Notes under the pieces: generated by a model
Told to the model about the DNA's origin: nothing
Databases searched by the model: none
The model's input: only the letters and a program-made list of their open reading frames with translations
Position numbers and translations under genes: made by a program
Shown here: piece by piece, positions 2 through 12,321 of the stretch
How the letters are laid out: every line of letters begins with the position of its first letter
Position numbering within the stretch: the first letter of the stretch is position 1
From: an uncultured Pirellulaceae bacterium
GTDB lineage: Bacteria > Planctomycetota > Planctomycetia > Pirellulales > Pirellulaceae
Length of the DNA stretch: 64,000 bases
Reading direction: 5' to 3'
Assembly (NCBI GenBank): GCA_938036435.1
Contig: CALHPU010000034.1
Span: forward strand, 1-64,000

Positions 2-73
2 CCATTGTTTCAGCCCGGAGCCAAGTTCACCTTCTTCATTGCGCTGTTGGTTGGTATCATTTTGCCTTTTTGA
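2..73 (+). CDS. C-terminal end of a membrane protein (partial)
   Basis: The first 72 bases read as an open frame ending in TGA at 71-73. The encoded tail is about 23 residues, with a hydrophobic run (FTFFIALLVGIILPF) that would form a C-terminal membrane segment. The rest of the gene lies left of the window, so no family can be assigned. It is on the same strand as the methyltransferase that follows after about 137 bases. Confidence 0.5.
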   Translation, partial: PLFQPGAKFTFFIALLVGIILPF

Positions 74-210
74 AACCTCAACCAAGAGCATTCCAGCACT
101 CATCCGTTTCGTTAGAAACATACTCCTTAATTAGCCATGCATCCCATTAAGGCAGAGATCGTTCTGCCCGGCAATCCAATGGCTATCAGGTGAAATATTC
201 GGAGAACCAC

Positions 211-957
211 GTGAACCAAGCAGCAGAAGAATTTACTTACGCGGAACAAGATCTCAATACGTACTCCGGAATATCGGACTACTACGATGTCTTGATGACC
301 AACGGGTACTACAACTACGAAGAGATCACGCGCAACCTATTGGAAGTGCTTGGTTCACGGCGACGAGTTTTGGAACTGGGTGTCGGGACGGGGCTGGTCG
401 CTGAAGGCTTGCTTCAACAAAACTCAGGTCTGTCACTTACCGGATTAGACAACACGGAATCGATGCTTGCTCAAGCCAAAGAGCGGTTGGGCGACAAGAT
501 CAAGTACGAGCTGCAAGATGTCACGACGTTCTCTTTGGACCGAACGTTTGAAGCTTCCTTTTCGGTAGGCGGCTGTTGGTACTTTATTGATCATGGAGAC
601 CGACTTGAGTTTTGCAGTCACATCGATGATCGCCAGACATGCGAGCAAAGCCTGCGGCGCGTGATTGAACATCTTGAGCCCGGTGGTGTTTTGAGTTTGG
701 CGCTACAGGATCCTCACACCGACTACTCAAAACCACTGACCGATGAGCTGACCTATTCGCAGGCCATCCATGATGAGGGCGCAGGCCTGTTTACCAAGCA
801 GTACACGTTCACCAAAGAGAACGAAGTCGTGGCGGAGCAATTTTACCGCTACCTAGTCATCTCGGAACAGGAGATCCACGACTTCTTTCTTGAGTTGGGA
901 TGCAAGCCGCTTGGCTTAAATTCAACTCGCAAGTTTTTCACCTACCAGAAGCAGTAG
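211..957 (+). CDS. Class I SAM-dependent methyltransferase
   Basis: About 248 residues with the Rossmann methyltransferase core. Motif I is VLELGVGTGLVAEGLL near residue 50, followed by an acidic post-I segment (LTGLDNTESML) and a later GGVLSLAL strand typical of methyltransferases of the Methyltransf_11/25 type. The substrate is unknown. I place the start at GTG 211 because GGAG lies at 201-204 with a 6-base spacer; an in-frame GTG at 190 is the alternative. The stop is only 4 bases before the GTG of the dehydrogenase-aminotransferase fusion, so the two are almost certainly co-translated and probably act in one small-molecule pathway (inference). Confidence 0.85.
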   Translation: MNQAAEEFTYAEQDLNTYSGISDYYDVLMTNGYYNYEEITRNLLEVLGSRRRVLELGVGTGLVAEGLLQQNSGLSLTGLDNTESMLAQAKERLGDKIKYELQDVTTFSLDRTFEASFSVGGCWYFIDHGDRLEFCSHIDDRQTCEQSLRRVIEHLEPGGVLSLALQDPHTDYSKPLTDELTYSQAIHDEGAGLFTKQYTFTKENEVVAEQFYRYLVISEQEIHDFFLELGCKPLGLNSTRKFFTYQKQ

Positions 958-961
958 AGCG

Positions 962-3220
962 GTGCCAGAAACAAAACCCTCCATCTACTTCGTGGGGTTG
1001 GGAAACATGGGAAACCCCATGGTTTGCAACCTGCTCAAGGCAGGCTACCACGTAACCGTATTCGACCTATCGAAATCCAAGGCCGAAAACTTGTTGGCCG
1101 TAGGGGCGACTTGGGCGAGCAACCTGACCGAAGGGTTGGAAAATTCGGACGTTGTGATTTCGTCGCTTCCAGGGCCACAGCAAGTCGCGGAAGTTTACCT
1201 CGGCGACCATGGCCTTTTATCGCATGCCAAGCCCGGAACAACTTTTATTGATACGACCACCAGTTCGGTAGAGCTTGCGGTGCAGATTGCGGAAAAGGCA
1301 AACACGCGCGATCTTAACTTCGTTGAAGCACCGATAACAAATGCGATCGACGGTGCCGCGCGTGGTGAGCTGGCATTCTTTATCGGAGGAGATGCCGATG
1401 TCTTTGCTGACCACAAGCCGATATTTGAGGTACTGGGAACCGACTTCTTCCTCACCGGTAGGCACGGAAACGGAGCCACGACCAAGCTGATCACTAATCT
1501 GCTTTGGTTTATCAACGCGGCCGCCATTGGTGAGGCTTTAATGATTGCTGCTCAGGCTGACATTCCTCTGGAAACGGTCGCGGCAGCCATTCGGTGCAGT
1601 GCTGGTAACAGCTGGGTCGCGGAACACGACATCGACTCCATATTCGCCGGACACTATGACCCGAGCTTTAGTTTGGAATTGTGCTGCAAAGACTTGCGAT
1701 TGGTCCACGAGATTGCAGAAGGCCAAGGACTTAGCCTGACGCTCGGTTCGGTTGCGCGATCCATGTTTGAAAAGGCCAAGGAAAAATACGGTGCCGATGC
1801 TCCCGAGCTTTCGGTCGCGCGGTTGGTTGAAGAGAAGATGGGCGTTCTGTTGCGCCCCAACGAAGCCGAATCCTCTGAGCCGAACAATGCAGTGGCTGAG
1901 AGTGGCGAGCGATCTAGTCAATCGGCTTTGATGGCAGAAGCTCACAAGCATATGCCGCAGGGAGTCGCGGAGAACTACCGCTACTGGGGCGACGATCGGA
2001 CGGTGTTTGTAGATCGTGCCAAAGGTTGCGAGATCGTTGACACCGATGGAAAGACCTACGTCGATTTCCGTTTGGGGTACGGCCCAATCATTTTGGGTTA
2101 CGGAGATGATCGTATTGATCAAGCGGTCGTTTCACAGATTCGCAAAGGCGGAACGCTTACCGGATTTGCCACCGCGCTTGATACTGAAGTGGTGAAACAA
2201 ATCAAAACACTGTGTCCGCAAGTTGAAAAAGTCCGTTTTGCTAACTCTGGTACCGAAGCCGTAATGGGTGCGGTGCGTACGGCGCGCGGGTACACCGGCC
2301 GCGACCGAGTAGCGACTTTCGAGGGTGGTTTTCATGGCCTCTATGATGAGATGATGTGGAAATCTGATGTCGAGAATTGGAACGACACCGGAGTATCGCC
2401 GAAGATCATTCCTTTTGGTGGAGGGATTCCTCATAAAACGAGAGATTTGGTAGACCTGCTTCCGCTGAATAGTTTTGAAGCCTTGGAAAACCAGTTCGCC
2501 ACCTATGGGCAGCAGCTGGCTGGTGTTGTGCTAGAACCAATTATTGGAAACTGCGGAAGCATCTCGGCCACCCAACAATGGTTGCAGCGCCTACGCGATC
2601 TCTGCACCGAGTACGGGACGATGTTGATCATCGATGAAGTCAAAACAGGATTCCGCGTGGCCAAAGGTGGCGCTCAACAACGCTACGGAATTTACGCGGA
2701 TCTCAGCACTTACGCCAAAGCGATCGGTAACGGGTATGCAGTTGCTGCTTTCGGAGGTCGCCAAGACGTAATGGATTCGGTGGGCTCCAATCCGGGAGGG
2801 GTTGTTCACGGTGGCACGTACACCGGAAACCTAGTCGGGCTGGCGGCCGCACATGCTACACTCGACATTCTCACTAACACCGACGCACTGAAAACGGTTG
2901 ACCGCGTAGGTGATGCCATTCAGGAAGTACTCGGACGCGTGTTTACCGCCGCAGGAATTGAACATCGCTTTGCCGGACCACCTGCGATGTTCGGCATTCA
3001 CTTTTCTGATGCAGTGCCAACCAATTATCGCCACTGGAAGCAAACGGACAGCAAACTCTATGAGGCATTCGCTTGGAATCTTATCGATGCTGGAGTGATG
3101 CTGGAGCCCGACTCGCGCGAGCCTTGGTTCATCTGTGAGGCTCACCAAAGCATGGACTTAGGTTGGTTGGAAGATGTTGCTACCCACTCAATGAAACGCG
3201 CCCAAGAAAGAAGCAGGTAG
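962..3220 (+). CDS. Fused beta-hydroxyacid dehydrogenase / class III aminotransferase
   Basis: 752 residues with two complete enzyme-like halves. Residues 1-290 are a 3-hydroxyisobutyrate dehydrogenase-family protein: an N-terminal NAD(P)-binding FVGLGNMGNPM, the substrate-binding region FVEAPITN, and the GNGATTKLITN helix carrying the catalytic lysine. After a linker at about 295-320, residues 320-752 are a class III PLP aminotransferase resembling glutamate-1-semialdehyde aminomutase. This half has FANSGTEAVMGAVRTAR, GGFHG, LIIDEVKTGFR (PLP-binding Asp) and YAKAIGNG with the Schiff-base lysine. Both active sites look intact, so coupled oxidation of a hydroxy acid and amination, or handling of a semialdehyde, is plausible (inference). 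Translation starts at GTG 962, right after the methyltransferase. Confidence 0.85.
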   Translation: MPETKPSIYFVGLGNMGNPMVCNLLKAGYHVTVFDLSKSKAENLLAVGATWASNLTEGLENSDVVISSLPGPQQVAEVYLGDHGLLSHAKPGTTFIDTTTSSVELAVQIAEKANTRDLNFVEAPITNAIDGAARGELAFFIGGDADVFADHKPIFEVLGTDFFLTGRHGNGATTKLITNLLWFINAAAIGEALMIAAQADIPLETVAAAIRCSAGNSWVAEHDIDSIFAGHYDPSFSLELCCKDLRLVHEIAEGQGLSLTLGSVARSMFEKAKEKYGADAPELSVARLVEEKMGVLLRPNEAESSEPNNAVAESGERSSQSALMAEAHKHMPQGVAENYRYWGDDRTVFVDRAKGCEIVDTDGKTYVDFRLGYGPIILGYGDDRIDQAVVSQIRKGGTLTGFATALDTEVVKQIKTLCPQVEKVRFANSGTEAVMGAVRTARGYTGRDRVATFEGGFHGLYDEMMWKSDVENWNDTGVSPKIIPFGGGIPHKTRDLVDLLPLNSFEALENQFATYGQQLAGVVLEPIIGNCGSISATQQWLQRLRDLCTEYGTMLIIDEVKTGFRVAKGGAQQRYGIYADLSTYAKAIGNGYAVAAFGGRQDVMDSVGSNPGGVVHGGTYTGNLVGLAAAHATLDILTNTDALKTVDRVGDAIQEVLGRVFTAAGIEHRFAGPPAMFGIHFSDAVPTNYRHWKQTDSKLYEAFAWNLIDAGVMLEPDSREPWFICEAHQSMDLGWLEDVATHSMKRAQERSR

Positions 3221-5492: not shown

Positions 5493-6198
5493 CTAATTGC
5501 CAAAGGCGTGCCCGAGCGCGTCAAAGATTACCTCGATCTCTTCAAGGATGGGCTTCGATTCATTTTTTGTTGTGTCTTTCAGTTTCACTTCGAATTGGAA
5601 TCCGAAGCCCGCGGGCAGCGCAGACAGATCAACCTTGGCAGGCGTCTTGGCGATCTGTTTGGAGAACCCCTCGATATAATCGTAAGTCTCCTTGGCCTTG
5701 GTCCATTGGGTCCATTGGGTCCATTGGGTCCACTGGTCGATCGTTTGGTCATTGTCGATGTCCACACCCACCCGTACTTCGACATCCTCGACCCAAGGTC
5801 CCGGGCTAATGAAGTCGTCCTTTTGTTGGGTTGCAAGGTAGAACTTGCCCTCGGCGAACATGATATCTGGGTCTGGATGCCCTTTTCCTATCTGGCCGCA
5901 CCATTTGAATTGCTCGTCGATGCTGTCTGAAGTGAACCAACCGACGCTCATTTGCTTTCGTCGCCTCGGTCTTTGTTGGCGTGACTTTCCCATCACTAAT
6001 CTCTAGCCCTTGTTTCCTTAAGATGTTTTCCTTCCAGCTTTCGTCTGAGTCGATCAACCACGAATTGGACGCCTCGGCTTTTTCAGCTGGATCGTCATCG
6101 GGCTCTGGCGTTGGGGCGGCAAAGGAAAAAGAAACCGTCAGAAAGCAAATCAAGGCAAAAAACAACAAAGAAGCAAGCATAGATCTTATGGATGTCAT
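5493..6198 (-). pseudogene. Decayed secreted protein: signal peptide joined out of frame to C-terminal domain
   Basis: Read leftward from ATG 6198, there is a clear signal peptide (SMLASLLFFALICFLTVSFSF) followed by about 55 sensible residues up to VTPTKTEAT. The frame then becomes nonsense. In the next frame a well-formed C-terminal domain begins at about 5947 (SVGWFTSDSID) and runs through GKGHPDPDIMFAEGKFYLAT, PWVEDVEVRVGVD and FSKQIAKTP to the stop at 5493. The domain resembles the C-terminus of secreted planctomycete glycosidase-like proteins of roughly 500 residues (recalled, not searched). Here the expected middle is missing, so a deletion plus frame change is the best explanation. It converges with the GH5 gene. 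Confidence 0.7.
5701..5736. repeat. Four tandem copies of a 9-bp unit
   Basis: GTCCATTGG occurs three times exactly and a fourth time with one change (GTCCACTGG). In the decayed gene on the minus strand it encodes a repeated Trp-Thr-Gln, and the unit length keeps the frame. Confidence 0.95.
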
Positions 6199-8481: not shown

Positions 8482-9309
8482 TTATTGAGACAACCGTTGG
8501 ATAAACGGAGGAATATCGCTGAAGTTAACTACTCCATCAAAATTCATGTCTGCCAAAATCTCGTTGTAACCGTTTCGCAATACGTCAATAAATCGAGGGA
8601 TATCCCTGAAGTCGACAACTCCGTTGTAATCTAGGTCGCCATAATCTTCGGGACAAGGACCTACATGGGGCGGAAGTACGTGGACCGTTGCAGATCCAAA
8701 CGACGGGTTAGTTGGACTAGGAGCAATCGGCGCGACACCAGCTTGGCCCAAACTGAATTCTAGATCCGTAGAAAGAAAAAACTGAACGACTTCGAAATCT
8801 ACTCGGGCAAGCAACACAGTTCCATTTGGTCCTACATCAGTTTGAAAACCGGGGTCTTAAAGCGCACTTAAATTTGGGTTGACGCCATTGTTACCGAAGT
8901 TGTTACCAAAACTAAATGCAAGCAAACGTCCGGTATTGCTACCATCGGGGGCAATTTCAAACGATAGACTAGGGTCAGAAGGGCTCGAATAAAAACGCGT
9001 ACCACCGATCGTATTAAATGTCGGGTTGAACACCTCTCCACCGGTAACACTGATCGCATTTGAATGACCAAGTGTAAAATCAAGATCAATAGCGTGAAAG
9101 CCAAACAGACCATCAGAGAAAATGTATGCTGAGCCAGTAGCACCGATAGGGCCATCGTATGCTGAGGGATCCTCGCAGGGATCACCGGAAGCAAAATACA
9201 ATTCCGTGACTAACTCCGTTGGGCTGAAGGACCAAAAGATATCTTGAGCACCGGCCAATGCGGGGCTAGCGATCACGATCGCAGCAGCAATCAAAACATT
9301 TCGAAACAT
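8482..9309 (-). pseudogene. Secreted dockerin-tail protein with an internal stop codon
   Basis: Reading leftward from ATG 9309 (GGAGGGCG just upstream), there is a signal peptide (MFRNVLIAAAIVIASPALAGAQ) and a domain closely similar to the proteins at 13694-14467 and 14586-15338. The frame meets TAA at 8857-8859. The same frame then continues without a shift as DPGFQTDVGPNGTVLLARVDF, aligning with DPLFIEEVGPNGAFILARVDF of the 14586-15338 paralog. It ends in two EF-hand-like repeats (DLDYNGVVDFRDIPRFI and DMNFDGVVNFSDIPPFI) at 8482. The break is therefore a single nonsense codon aligned with a Val in the paralog. It is either a young pseudogene, readthrough or a sequence error. Confidence 0.8.
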
Positions 9310-9488
9310 AGCATCGCCCTCCAATGGAAGAGTTAGATATCGCAGGGAATCACTAGTGCAGCATCAGTCAGCAGGGTAGGCGAGATTCCCTCATCTGTCA
9401 AATTTATCTCCCCGTTCACTCAGCATCGAGTAAAACGGGCCTATCTCTAGCTATCTATATCGGCAACTTTAGGCCAATCATGCACCGT

Positions 9489-10967
9489 TTACTGATTGGT
9501 CAAGATTGCAATAAACGGTGCGATATCTAAGAAGTCGACCACCCCACTCTCATCAATGTCGGCTTCGGCTTTGAACGTTCCAGATTGCAAGAGAGCAATG
9601 AACGGAGCAATGTCCAAAAAATTGACGGTGCCGTTCATATCAACATCGCCCAAAATCATTACCGGGCTGCCGTTGATGACAGAGATGCGTTGAAGCAAAA
9701 AATCGACTGCATTACCAGATCCAAAAGGGGACTGGAAACTGACCTCAACAATCGTGCCGTTTAGGACGCCGTCTGCGGTGTCGCCGTTAAAGAAAAAATC
9801 ACTCAAGTTAACAATCGCTCGACCGTCGTCGGCAAGATCTGCCGCCGGCACGCTCACACTGAAGAACTCGCCACTGTCTTCGCGGATGGCAACTACCAAA
9901 TCGGTGTTATTGGTTCCACCAATAATTGCCTCGACCAGAAGCTGAGTATCGTTGTCGACGACAATACCCTCGGTGACCAAATTTTGATCGAACTCCGCCA
10001 CCAAACCAAAATTACTCCCCGCGGTTGCTGGTAAGGTAATCTCGTATCCGTTGTTTGTTAGGGCTCCTAAACCATCAAACCCTTCAAAGGCTTGGGCAGT
10101 GGTGCTGGTAGTGAAATCAGCAAGCACGAAAGTGCCGGGGGTCGCTTCGATCGGAAGTATTTGTGTGATTACTAGCGAATCGACTTCCATGATGATGATT
10201 TGATTATTAGCGGGGTTGGAAGTCGGTTGGATCTGAGCGCTGAAGGCGGCCGCAAACTCAGGCCCCTGCGCGTTGATGTTCAGCCGAAAATCCTGCGGCT
10301 CCAATGCGAGATCAGCCGTCTCTTCGCGAATCAGTTGATCGTTGACGAAGAAGCGCGTGTTGTCGATCTGAACTTCAATTCGATAGTCATTGAATTCCGT
10401 GAGGTCTAAACCGGGAACGTCGGTTATGACAAAATTACCGGCAACGTTGAATCCGTCATCGTTGAAAATGTTGGTCGATATCGAGTCTTGCGGATTGTTG
10501 CTGAGCAATTCGAAGTCAATTTCATCACGTTCGTTTGGGTTGGGGAAATTCGCGTCTAAGCCAAACAGAAAAATGCCACCGATAACGCCGGGCCTGAGTG
10601 GGTTGGTGGAATTATCTACGAAACGCGCACGGGTTTCGAATCGATAACCCAAATTCGCGGTAGGTGCGAAAGTTTGAATCGTCCGAACTTCATCCGCCCA
10701 AAAAAGCCTACCAGTATCAATTGGGTTGTACGATTGTAACCGTAGTCGCAATGTTCCATTTTGAACTGGCGGAGCATTCGGGTTGAGTCGCACTCGGCCA
10801 AATATTGTGCTGCCGCTATCAAAGGTGAAAACTGAAGTATCCACTGAGTTACCATCGAATTGTTCGTCGATGATCACTTGGCCGTGCGACTTCAAGGAAA
10901 CAAAAAATGCACACACAATAATAAGGGCGGCAGAGAGAAACAGGCTGCGGCCGAAATGCTGATTCAT
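9489..10967 (-). CDS. Secreted GH16-like glycoside hydrolase with dockerin-like tail
   Basis: 492 residues. A signal peptide (LFLSAALIIVCAFFVSLKSHGQ) precedes a jelly-roll GH16 family domain at about 30-270. The catalytic signature E149-I-D-F-E153 sits in NERDEIDFELL and is intact. Residues about 275-435 form the same accessory module as in the GH5 protein (shared blocks DLVVAIRE, GEFFSVSVPA, DGVLNG, QSP). The last 55 residues are two EF-hand-like repeats (GDVDMNGTVNFLDIAPFI and DIDESGVVDFLDIAPFI). The likely substrate is a beta-1,3/1,4-glucan, agar or carrageenan type polymer; specificity cannot be read from the sequence. It is transcribed divergently from metA. Confidence 0.85.
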   Translation of the reverse strand: MNQHFGRSLFLSAALIIVCAFFVSLKSHGQVIIDEQFDGNSVDTSVFTFDSGSTIFGRVRLNPNAPPVQNGTLRLRLQSYNPIDTGRLFWADEVRTIQTFAPTANLGYRFETRARFVDNSTNPLRPGVIGGIFLFGLDANFPNPNERDEIDFELLSNNPQDSISTNIFNDDGFNVAGNFVITDVPGLDLTEFNDYRIEVQIDNTRFFVNDQLIREETADLALEPQDFRLNINAQGPEFAAAFSAQIQPTSNPANNQIIIMEVDSLVITQILPIEATPGTFVLADFTTSTTAQAFEGFDGLGALTNNGYEITLPATAGSNFGLVAEFDQNLVTEGIVVDNDTQLLVEAIIGGTNNTDLVVAIREDSGEFFSVSVPAADLADDGRAIVNLSDFFFNGDTADGVLNGTIVEVSFQSPFGSGNAVDFLLQRISVINGSPVMILGDVDMNGTVNFLDIAPFIALLQSGTFKAEADIDESGVVDFLDIAPFIAILTNQ

Positions 10968-11196
10968 GGAGGAAAGCCGTCGAAGTTTGAGGATGGGAGT
11001 TTTTGCCGAGGAGCAAGAAGAAATCGAGTTATCGATCTACCTAAGTGTAGCTCCCCAAACGGGCATTTCAATCTAATAGGGTATAGCTTTTCCGGCGTGA
11101 TGCTTACGAGTCAGACGAATTCCTGTTTTACAATGGGCAATGGGGAGATTGGTCTGTAGAATGAGCAGCTTATTTAGTACCGACAAACGATAGAAA

Positions 11197-11218
11197 TCTC
11201 GACCTATTTGCGTCGAGA
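11197..11218 (+). promoter_or_regulatory. Hairpin in the metA leader
   Basis: TCTCGAC (11197-11203) pairs perfectly with GTCGAGA (11212-11218) around an 8-base loop, 26 bases before the metA ATG and followed by a short AT-rich run (ATTTTG). It could be part of a leader that controls metA, or a weak terminator. I do not recognise a known SAM riboswitch around it. Confidence 0.35.
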
Positions 11219-11244
11219 ATTTTGAAAAAGCTGAAGAGACACTG

Positions 11245-12321
11245 ATGCCACTAGTTGCTCACATACCACTGCCCACGTTCGAATATCTGCACAAACGCGG
11301 CGAAAACGTGCTTGAACTCGGGCAAGCGTTGCAGCAAGACATTCGCGAGTTGCATGTTGGTTTTCTCAACATGATGCCCGATTCGGCGCTGGTGGTCACT
11401 GAGCGACAGTTCATGCGATTGGTCGGTAGCAGCAACCAGATCGCTCAACTGTTTGTCCACCCGTTTACGATTCCCGGATTGCCGCGCGGGGCTGAGGCGC
11501 AGGCTTACATCGACAAGTATTATCTTCCCTTCGAACAGCTCAAGAGTGAGGGGCTAGACGCGCTGATAATCTCTGGCGCCAACGTCGCCAACCCGATCTT
11601 AGAACAGGAGCCATTTTGGAAAGCACTGTTCGAGATCATCGATTGGGCAGCCGAACACGTAACCTCCGTTCTCTGTTCCTGTCTTGCGACTCACGCGCTT
11701 GCCAAAGCGATTCACGGAATAGACCGCAAACGGTTGCCAGAAAAAAGATGGGGCGTCTACCCGCATCGGATCGCGCCGATAGACCATCCGCTACTGCGAG
11801 ACATCAATACCCGGTTTGATGTGCCGCATTCTAGATACAATGGCGTCAGCCGCGCTCAAATGGAGGCAGCTGGAATGAAAATTTTGGCCGATAGCGCCCA
11901 AAGTGGTGTTCACCTAGCGGTCAGCCCAGACCAGTTCCGTGTTGTCTATTTCCAAGGACATCCGGAATACGATCGCAACAGTCTGCTCAAGGAATACAAG
12001 CGCGAGGTCAGCCGATTCGTGGCCGGTGAGCGAGACGATTACCCAACCCACGTCGAGAACTATTTCTCGCCAGAAGCTGCCGAAATTGTGGACGCCTATG
12101 AGGCCATCGTTCACGCCTGCCTCAAGCAAAAATCCACTGTTCCACCTTTTCCCGAAAAACAAATCGAGCCCTTCTTAGATAATACTTGGCTGGACACAGG
12201 GAAATCGATTGTAAACAACTGGCTGGGAATGGTGTACCGATTAACTCATACCGACCGAACAATCTCGTTCGCCGAGGGCGTCGACCCCAACAATCCACTT
12301 GGAATTAAAACAGAAAACTAG
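11245..12321 (+). CDS. metA: Homoserine O-acyltransferase, MetA family
   Basis: 358 residues, a little longer than E. coli MetA. It has the family start MPLVAHIPLPTFE, FLNMMPDSALVVTERQF, a nucleophile cysteine in SVLCSCLATHAL (Cys146 by alignment), and the catalytic His239/Glu241 in FQGHPEYD. It activates homoserine by acylation as the first committed step of methionine synthesis. In E. coli-type enzymes Gly and in acetyl-using enzymes Glu sits at the fifth position of GAPxG/E. Here the aligned segment is GANVA, so Ala115 occupies the acyl-specificity position. The next gene is an O-acetylhomoserine sulfhydrylase-type enzyme only 11 bases downstream, which argues for acetyl-CoA use (inference). 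Confidence 0.85.
   Translation: MPLVAHIPLPTFEYLHKRGENVLELGQALQQDIRELHVGFLNMMPDSALVVTERQFMRLVGSSNQIAQLFVHPFTIPGLPRGAEAQAYIDKYYLPFEQLKSEGLDALIISGANVANPILEQEPFWKALFEIIDWAAEHVTSVLCSCLATHALAKAIHGIDRKRLPEKRWGVYPHRIAPIDHPLLRDINTRFDVPHSRYNGVSRAQMEAAGMKILADSAQSGVHLAVSPDQFRVVYFQGHPEYDRNSLLKEYKREVSRFVAGERDDYPTHVENYFSPEAAEIVDAYEAIVHACLKQKSTVPPFPEKQIEPFLDNTWLDTGKSIVNNWLGMVYRLTHTDRTISFAEGVDPNNPLGIKTEN

Follow-up and report, generated by a model that had tools for sequence, protein, structure and literature searches.

The order of alcohol oxidation, transamination and then methylation is known from aminoglycoside tailoring. In the daptide report the same three steps (alcohol oxidation, class III transamination and N-methylation) are experimentally established for daptide C-termini, and the enzymes MpaC, MpaD and MpaM are given as an alcohol dehydrogenase acting as oxidative decarboxylase, a class III aminotransferase and a methyltransferase (PMC10036551). 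Here we discuss a methyltransferase gene (MT) that is followed by a single gene fusing a 3-hydroxyisobutyrate-dehydrogenase-type domain (DH) to a glutamate-1-semialdehyde (GSA) aminotransferase-type domain (AT), in DNA from an uncultured Pirellulaceae bacterium (GenBank GCA_938036435.1, contig CALHPU010000034.1). The window is the whole stretch analysed, the first 64,000 nucleotides of that contig (G000:C34:1-64000), and the genome is in 176 contigs and 89.75% complete. The contig has no sequence to the left of the window. We suggest, with a probability of roughly 0.58, that MT, DH and AT form a pathway in which a small molecule loses a hydroxyl group and gains a methylated amino group in its place.

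The mechanical list of open reading frames (ORFs) has 190..957 (+) and 962..3220 (+, 752 aa). The stop codon of MT is at 955-957 and the fusion starts with GTG at 962, giving the 4-base gap reported in an earlier note on this DNA. The start at 211 given there for MT is also better supported than that at 190, because GGAGA at 201-205 and GTG211 are common to the planctomycete relatives L032 and L033. MT matches Methyltransf_25 of Pfam (44.4 bits, above the gathering score). The fusion matches NAD_binding_2 at residues 8-163 (146.7 bits, gathering score 21), NAD_binding_11 at 169-288 (93.8 bits, gathering score 30) and Aminotran_3, PF00202, at 346-715 (223.7 bits, gathering score 30.5), the last making AT a member of the class III aminotransferases. 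The AlphaFold2 (AF2) model of the fusion is moderate (pLDDT 82.7, pTM 0.57). The features are as follows.

6..86, + strand: conserved, apparently non-coding stretch 5' of MT, probable promoter or leader (similarity to L032 and L033)
201..205, + strand: GGAGA, Shine-Dalgarno-like, before GTG211 (invariant in the window, L032 and L033)
211..957, + strand: MT, methyltransferase dependent on S-adenosylmethionine (SAM), 248 aa from GTG211 (Pfam, AF2 model)
962..3220, + strand: DH-AT fusion, 752 aa (Pfam; fused homologues in L032-L054 and L109)
962..1849, + strand: DH domain, 3-hydroxyisobutyrate dehydrogenase type, NAD_binding_2 and NAD_binding_11 (Pfam)
1337..1345, + strand: T126-N127-A128 of DH, replacing S-G-G of solved relatives (alignment)
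1850..1915, + strand: interdomain linker, residues 297-318, of low confidence at 302-315 (AF2 model)
1916..3220, + strand: AT domain, class III, GSA-aminotransferase fold (Pfam)
2717-2719, 1979-1981 and 3119-3121, + strand: invariant AT residues K586, R340 and E720 respectively (alignment)

A pattern-based protein scan of a species-genome collection (84,980 species by its own description) gave 163 confirmed relatives. The best 80 of these are the basis of the locus counts, with gene order read by tblastn of MT, DH and AT against each. DH is directly 5' of AT on the same strand in 72 of the 80 loci, and MT is directly 5' of DH in 68 of these 72. The other four (L056, L060, L065 and L080) have contig ends where MT would stand, and apart from those four no DH-AT pair lacking MT was found among the 80 loci. 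In 24 loci (L032-L054 and L109), as well as in the window, a single ORF of at least 700 aa encodes both DH and AT. They are separate genes in the remaining 48 of the 72, often touching or overlapping, and in L075 the three ORFs nearly touch (MT 9288-10001, DH 9998-10900, AT 10897-12204). In L068 (2463-3330) DH is in two frames between MT and AT, which we attribute to a frameshift or sequencing error.

The fusion of a dehydrogenase to a class III aminotransferase domain, as proposed in the earlier note, is thus real, both on the Pfam scores and on its recurrence. The note had considered that close relatives might have the domains only as adjacent separate genes; such genes do exist, side by side with the fused orthologues. 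An artefact of assembly or annotation is rejected, since the other fused ORFs come from separate records. It could still be argued that only chance or shared mobility has brought the three genes together and that they do not form one pathway, and the rarity of the set and its movement between phyla, described below, would fit this. However every DH-bearing locus with the upstream side visible has the genes in the same order, many with DH and AT as one protein, and we regard such an explanation as very improbable.

AT stands alone in the last eight of the 80 loci (L088, L094-L096, L107, L108, L110 and L111). Six of these genomes have DH matches at E <= 1e-30, none above 35% identity, and two have no match at all, while two cassette genomes searched alongside gave DH matches of 66% and 59% identity. 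Three of the eight genomes, all betaproteobacterial, carry a different DH with a T-G-G motif and 34-35% identity to the window DH (L114 1068-1997, L115 1369-2460 and L116 1-861), and in L115 and L116 the ORF after it resembles an aldehyde dehydrogenase by eye. We considered this T-G-G protein as the DH partner and rejected it, as it is not the same enzyme.

The records with the cassette are labelled as Planctomycetota, Bdellovibrionota, Myxococcota and alpha- and betaproteobacteria. It is rare: with a DH profile at E <= 1e-100 the cassette DH was found in 1 of 246 genomes of the window's order, this being the window's own, and in 1 of 200 genomes of the family of Limnohabitans sp. Jir61 (L075), this being Jir61 itself. 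Among 392 genomes sampled from the phylum the best match to the fusion in another genome has an E value of 8.1e-83; the window's own genome gives 0. The phylum matches listed begin at residue 261 or later, with 32-42% identity, and are thus essentially to the AT part.

Clustering of ORFs in flanks of up to 10 kb gave no neighbour beyond MT, DH and AT that is conserved across lineages, and the next commonest flank gene families reach 13 of 81 loci at most. The clustering uses mechanical ORFs and picks antisense ORFs in GC-rich DNA, so that a conserved neighbour could be missed; indeed it missed MT in L047, L051, L052 and L105, all four of which were recovered by tblastn. Two Burkholderiales groups with common neighbour genes have the cassette at two different points of one block (L066 and L075). 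From its rarity and its changing outer neighbours we conclude that MT-DH-AT is a self-contained, portable unit that has spread horizontally. The constant order and the lack of any other neighbour conserved across lineages also bear out the suggestion in the earlier note of a small dedicated unit.

Two of the three Bdellovibrionota loci have an extra gene beside the cassette, on opposite sides (L034 8293-9099 and L037 12544-13020), which resembles another methyltransferase by eye. That the fusion is a phage or plasmid gene was also considered and rejected: by tblastn no record covers 80% of it (plasmids at E 1e-80, phages at E 1e-40), and a pattern-based scan of viral contigs found none.

Trees were built from 60 of the 92 AT rows and from 39 of the 70 DH+AT rows, in both cases thinned by hand, with L098, L100 and L105 also omitted from the second. 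The window, Mariniblastus (L032) and a Pirellulaceae metagenome-assembled genome (MAG; L033) share a group that also contains three Bdellovibrionota and a Myxococcales MAG, and thus spans phyla, in the AT tree (98, starred) and in the DH+AT tree (100, starred). MAG labels may be wrong, and we have doubts about those of L086, L098 and L109; the Thermoflexus label of L098, for example, is on a sequence almost the same as that of the betaproteobacterial L100. The fused loci form three clusters on the DH+AT tree, on which the fused state takes 3 changes, the starred branches forcing at least 2, and on the AT tree it takes 4 or 5. However a single fused clade is not rejected by the approximately unbiased (AU) test (p 0.10), and we therefore make no claim of repeated fusion; there may have been several fusions, or equally one fusion with later splits.

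The DH alignment has 70 rows, one from the window and 69 from the 72 loci with DH; of the DHs omitted two are cut and one is split over two frames. K175 and N179, which we take to be at the positions of the catalytic Lys and Asn of beta-hydroxyacid dehydrogenases, are invariant in all 70 rows, as are W182, F183 and W218. The aligned solved relatives have S-G-G, presumably the substrate-carboxylate motif of the 3-hydroxyisobutyrate dehydrogenase (HIBADH) family, where all 70 rows have T126-N127-[A/G]128 (T-N-A in 69, T-N-G in 1). With S-G-G gone the substrate is probably not a simple acid of the 3-hydroxyisobutyrate kind, and the score with the HIBADH model TIGR01692 (184.3 bits) is below its curated cut-off of 291.6. 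L060, L068 and L080, in which DH is cut or split, are absent from the DH family set, and L086, in which MT is cut, from the MT set; alignments A1, A2, A3 and A4 have 35, 35, 37 and 62 rows.

In AT, K586, D558, R340, N530 and E720 are invariant in 81 of 81 rows. The earlier note had both domains with intact active-site motifs, and this stands for the catalytic residues of DH and for K586 and D558 of AT, but not for the substrate motif of DH. For comparison we used 29 rows resembling GSA aminomutase (GSAM) from the phylum search, in which residues aligned with R340, N530 and E720 are present in 28, 29 and 29 rows. By the GSAM equivalents we assume that a substrate carboxylate is held near Arg32 and that Glu406 is at the switch-arginine place, where other class III aminotransferases carry that arginine and GSA aminomutase has Glu. 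As the pocket Arg, Asn and Glu of GSAM are kept, the substrate of AT probably carries a carboxylate or similar anion.

These same residues allow another reading, in which AT would resemble GSA aminomutase in function and shift the amino group within an amino-aldehyde made by DH, to give an amino ketone. We think this improbable, since other positions differ from the GSAM-like rows: E337 (Glu or Asp in 81 of 81) against Ser in 28 of 29 with one gap, Y373 against Trp in 28 and Phe in 1, F457 against Tyr in 29 of 29, and V615 (Val or Thr) against Tyr or Phe in 29 of 29. W466 likewise stands against Val, Ile or Ser in 29 of 29. In addition AT scores 342.2 bits with the hemL model TIGR00713, below its curated cut-off of 527.3. 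Its best curated model is that for GntE (NF041362), with 445.5 bits over 320-733, again below the cut-off, which is 525. We therefore suggest that the names GSAM, GntE and HIBADH be avoided for both domains. In the earlier note AT was of GSA-aminotransferase type, and it is indeed a full class III domain by Pfam, but the curated cut-offs do not place it among the GSA aminomutases. A housekeeping hemL fused by accident is also rejected, as the hemL cut-off is missed and a separate GSAM-like gene, with 34% identity to AT, is present elsewhere in the genome (G000:C80).

The AF2 model of MT is confident (mean pLDDT 92.7). On searching for similar folds with VIA-align the first match is the aminopentose methyltransferase CalS10, and ranks 2-11 are the N-methyltransferases TylM1 (8 entries), CypM and KedS8, all with Z 22.2-23.2 over 215-220 residues at 16-20% identity. 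GSMT and GNMT are further down the list. The modelled fold thus leans to an amine substrate, and does not settle N-methylation. With PADLOC, residues 26-171 of MT match mad2, a component of the MADS defence system, but weakly (47.3 bits). We rejected a role in defence, as the fusion has no PADLOC match and that of MT reads as general methyltransferase similarity. A stand-alone homologue with 38% identity is present in an unannotated record of Streptomyces sp. BHT-5-2 (L123 14977-15705), with no DH or AT match in 30 kb.

It is in relation to MT that we have to consider a different sequence of events, in which methylation comes first, or is onto O, S or C: MT would make the substrate for DH, AT would finish the product, and this would be an amine with its methyl group at another site of the molecule. 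Wherever MT is visible (68 loci) it opens the cassette, and gene order often, although not always, follows reaction order. The nearest folds also include the C-methyltransferases SgMT, PsmD and SeMT, at Z 21.7-21.8 beside DesVI. However 10 of the 11 best fold matches are amine N-methyltransferases, and the gene row with a sister AT in Fuscovulum, discussed below, resembles a route of N-demethylation that ends at a primary amine. We think methylation first is unlikely.

The pathway that we prefer would start with oxidation of an alcohol to an aldehyde or ketone by DH with NAD(P)+, followed by conversion of the carbonyl to a primary amine by AT with pyridoxal phosphate (PLP), and MT would then use SAM to methylate the new nitrogen, giving an N-methylamine. 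The substrate would probably have a carboxylate or similar anion, and probably not be a simple acid such as 3-hydroxyisobutyrate. Where DH and AT are fused, the reactive carbonyl could be handed on directly and the two activities would be present in equal amounts. We infer the three reactions, their direction, nitrogen as the methylated atom and the class of substrate from the observed genes, their order and co-conservation, the invariant residues and the folds.

The closest outgroup AT, that of Fuscovulum ytuae (L122), is 48% identical to the window AT, and two more of this kind (L127 and L128) were found among 274 genomes sampled from the class of Thalassomonas. In the AT tree, which carries a long-branch warning, the three form one group next to the cassette ATs. 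The gene rows are L122 14974-30229, L127 7918-14064 and L128 5514-10247. In all three the sister AT is beside two FAD oxidoreductases resembling CrtO/CrtI and transport genes of Pot-like (polyamine) type, which are divergently placed in L127 and L128 and in L122 include a PotF-like transporter. For the GcvT-type protein of L122 the best NCBIfam model is trimethylamine-N-oxide (TMAO) demethylase (259.5, cut-off 1100), and for its two Rieske proteins it is the glycine betaine monooxygenase GbcA (151.3 and 127.7, cut-off 670); one of the Rieske proteins also matches PDB 4qup, named demethylase, and carnitine monooxygenase. L122 also has a cupin of the dimethylsulfoniopropionate (DMSP) lyase family. 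From these sequence matches the gene row looks like one for import and N-demethylation of a methylated amine, the primary amine being left for AT.

This catabolic look of the genes adjoining the closest outgroup AT, with the PotF-like transporter, raises the question of direction for the cassette itself, as transaminases and 3-hydroxyisobutyrate-type dehydrogenases are reversible. AT could then deaminate an imported compound and DH reduce the aldehyde to the alcohol, with MT modifying or detoxifying. However no family of transporter, demethylase, oxygenase or aldehyde dehydrogenase is conserved with the cassette across lineages, and an MT that consumes SAM is unexpected in a route of degradation, so that we think this quite unlikely.

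Several observations weigh against the proposed synthesis of a methylated amine. The demethylase-like parallel belongs to a relative with 48% identity and not to the cassette, and in the stretches read a GcvT-type gene is in only 2 of the 3 sister loci (L122 and L127) and Rieske genes are in 1 (L122). The best PDB match of the L122 GcvT-type protein is named aminomethyltransferase and comes ahead of TMAO demethylase. The C-methyltransferases are close behind the N-methyltransferases in the fold list. AT has the GSAM Glu at the switch-arginine place, which would disfavour ordinary amino-acid donors. The AT-only loci indicate that AT has a further use without DH and MT, and together with the low conservation of MT that it is not tied to MT everywhere. 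Identity to the window is 32-87% for MT and 63-92% for AT, and with MT so much less conserved it could act on varied products.

The earlier note had proposed a pathway for a methylated amino compound, and the lean of the MT fold to amine N-methyltransferases and the presence of sister ATs beside demethylase-like enzymes favour this, but it stays a conditional reading. More tentatively, and with considerable doubt, the cassette may be an undescribed mobile pathway that converts a free hydroxylated, anion-bearing metabolite to an N-methylated and possibly quaternary amine. This amine would serve as a compatible solute or signal not so far recognised in fresh and coastal waters, and other bacteria there, with the sister AT beside Rieske and GcvT-type enzymes, would import it and demethylate it again, closing a cycle. 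If synthesis of a methylated amine is the correct reading, DH and AT are a ready-made enzyme pair for conversion of alcohols to amines, and the cassette points to a methylated amine produced by aquatic bacteria that is so far unrecognised. Two or three genes make up the whole set, apparently with nothing missing, and the product can therefore be searched for by expression in a laboratory strain.

With regard to sequences around the genes, 6..86 of the window has 74% identity to L032 9036-9116 over 81 bases and 77% to L033 over 47 bases, with no uninterrupted reading frame common to the window, L032 and L033. In these two other planctomycete MAGs it is conserved while the sequence 3' of the fusion is not, and a promoter region may therefore travel with the cassette. 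For riboswitches, seven whole relative loci were compared with Rfam and the sole match was a tRNA. Further along, a minus-strand ORF at 5493-5996 of the window has the short tandem repeat TQWTQWTQWTK.

A trio of daptide type (class III AT, dehydrogenase and methyltransferase) is together in the 68 complete loci, with a dehydrogenase of another family, and we considered whether the substrate might be a ribosomally synthesised and post-translationally modified peptide (RiPP). Small ORFs were compared upstream of 65 loci and downstream of 76, within about 0.9-1 kb of the cassette. The 1,682 small ORFs gave, at E <= 1e-3, cross-lineage hits for just 3 Arg-rich frames that look non-coding, which does not favour the RiPP reading; no convincing cross-lineage precursor gene was found, although a short, poorly conserved or distant one would escape. 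For the DUF-RRE accessory gene no partner conserved across lineages was found in flanks of up to 10 kb, RiPP recognition element (RRE) models not having been run. With the curated daptide models MT scores 38 bits (cut-off 175) and AT 136.6 bits (cut-off 450). A few narrow searches of open-licence full-text literature found no paper that describes three such genes as a stand-alone set, spread horizontally and with its first two enzymes joined in one protein.

In comparison with described enzymes, DH shares both Pfam domains and the catalytic Lys and Asn with the 3-hydroxyisobutyrate dehydrogenase and tartronate semialdehyde reductase family, but is below the HIBADH cut-off and has T-N-[A/G] in place of S-G-G. 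AT is related to GSAM (HemL) over the whole domain, with the catalytic Lys and with Arg, Asn and Glu at aligned positions, but falls below the hemL cut-off and has several of the other compared positions replaced. GntE, the PLP transaminase of guanitoxin biosynthesis, is the best-scoring curated model for AT, but its cut-off is also missed, and only MT and DH were found conserved with AT across lineages. MT has the fold of TylM1, CypM, KedS8 and CalS10, but differs in having such low identity to them. The daptide Dmp pathway likewise combines an NAD(P)-dependent dehydrogenase, a PF00202 aminotransferase and a PF13649 SAM methyltransferase, but its dehydrogenase is of PF00465 or PF13561 and acts on a peptide, whereas the cassette DH is of PF03446/PF14833 (PMC10036551). 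The cassette also differs in that DH and AT are fused in part of the loci. By analogy the chemical logic would be that of the daptide triad with another family of dehydrogenase.

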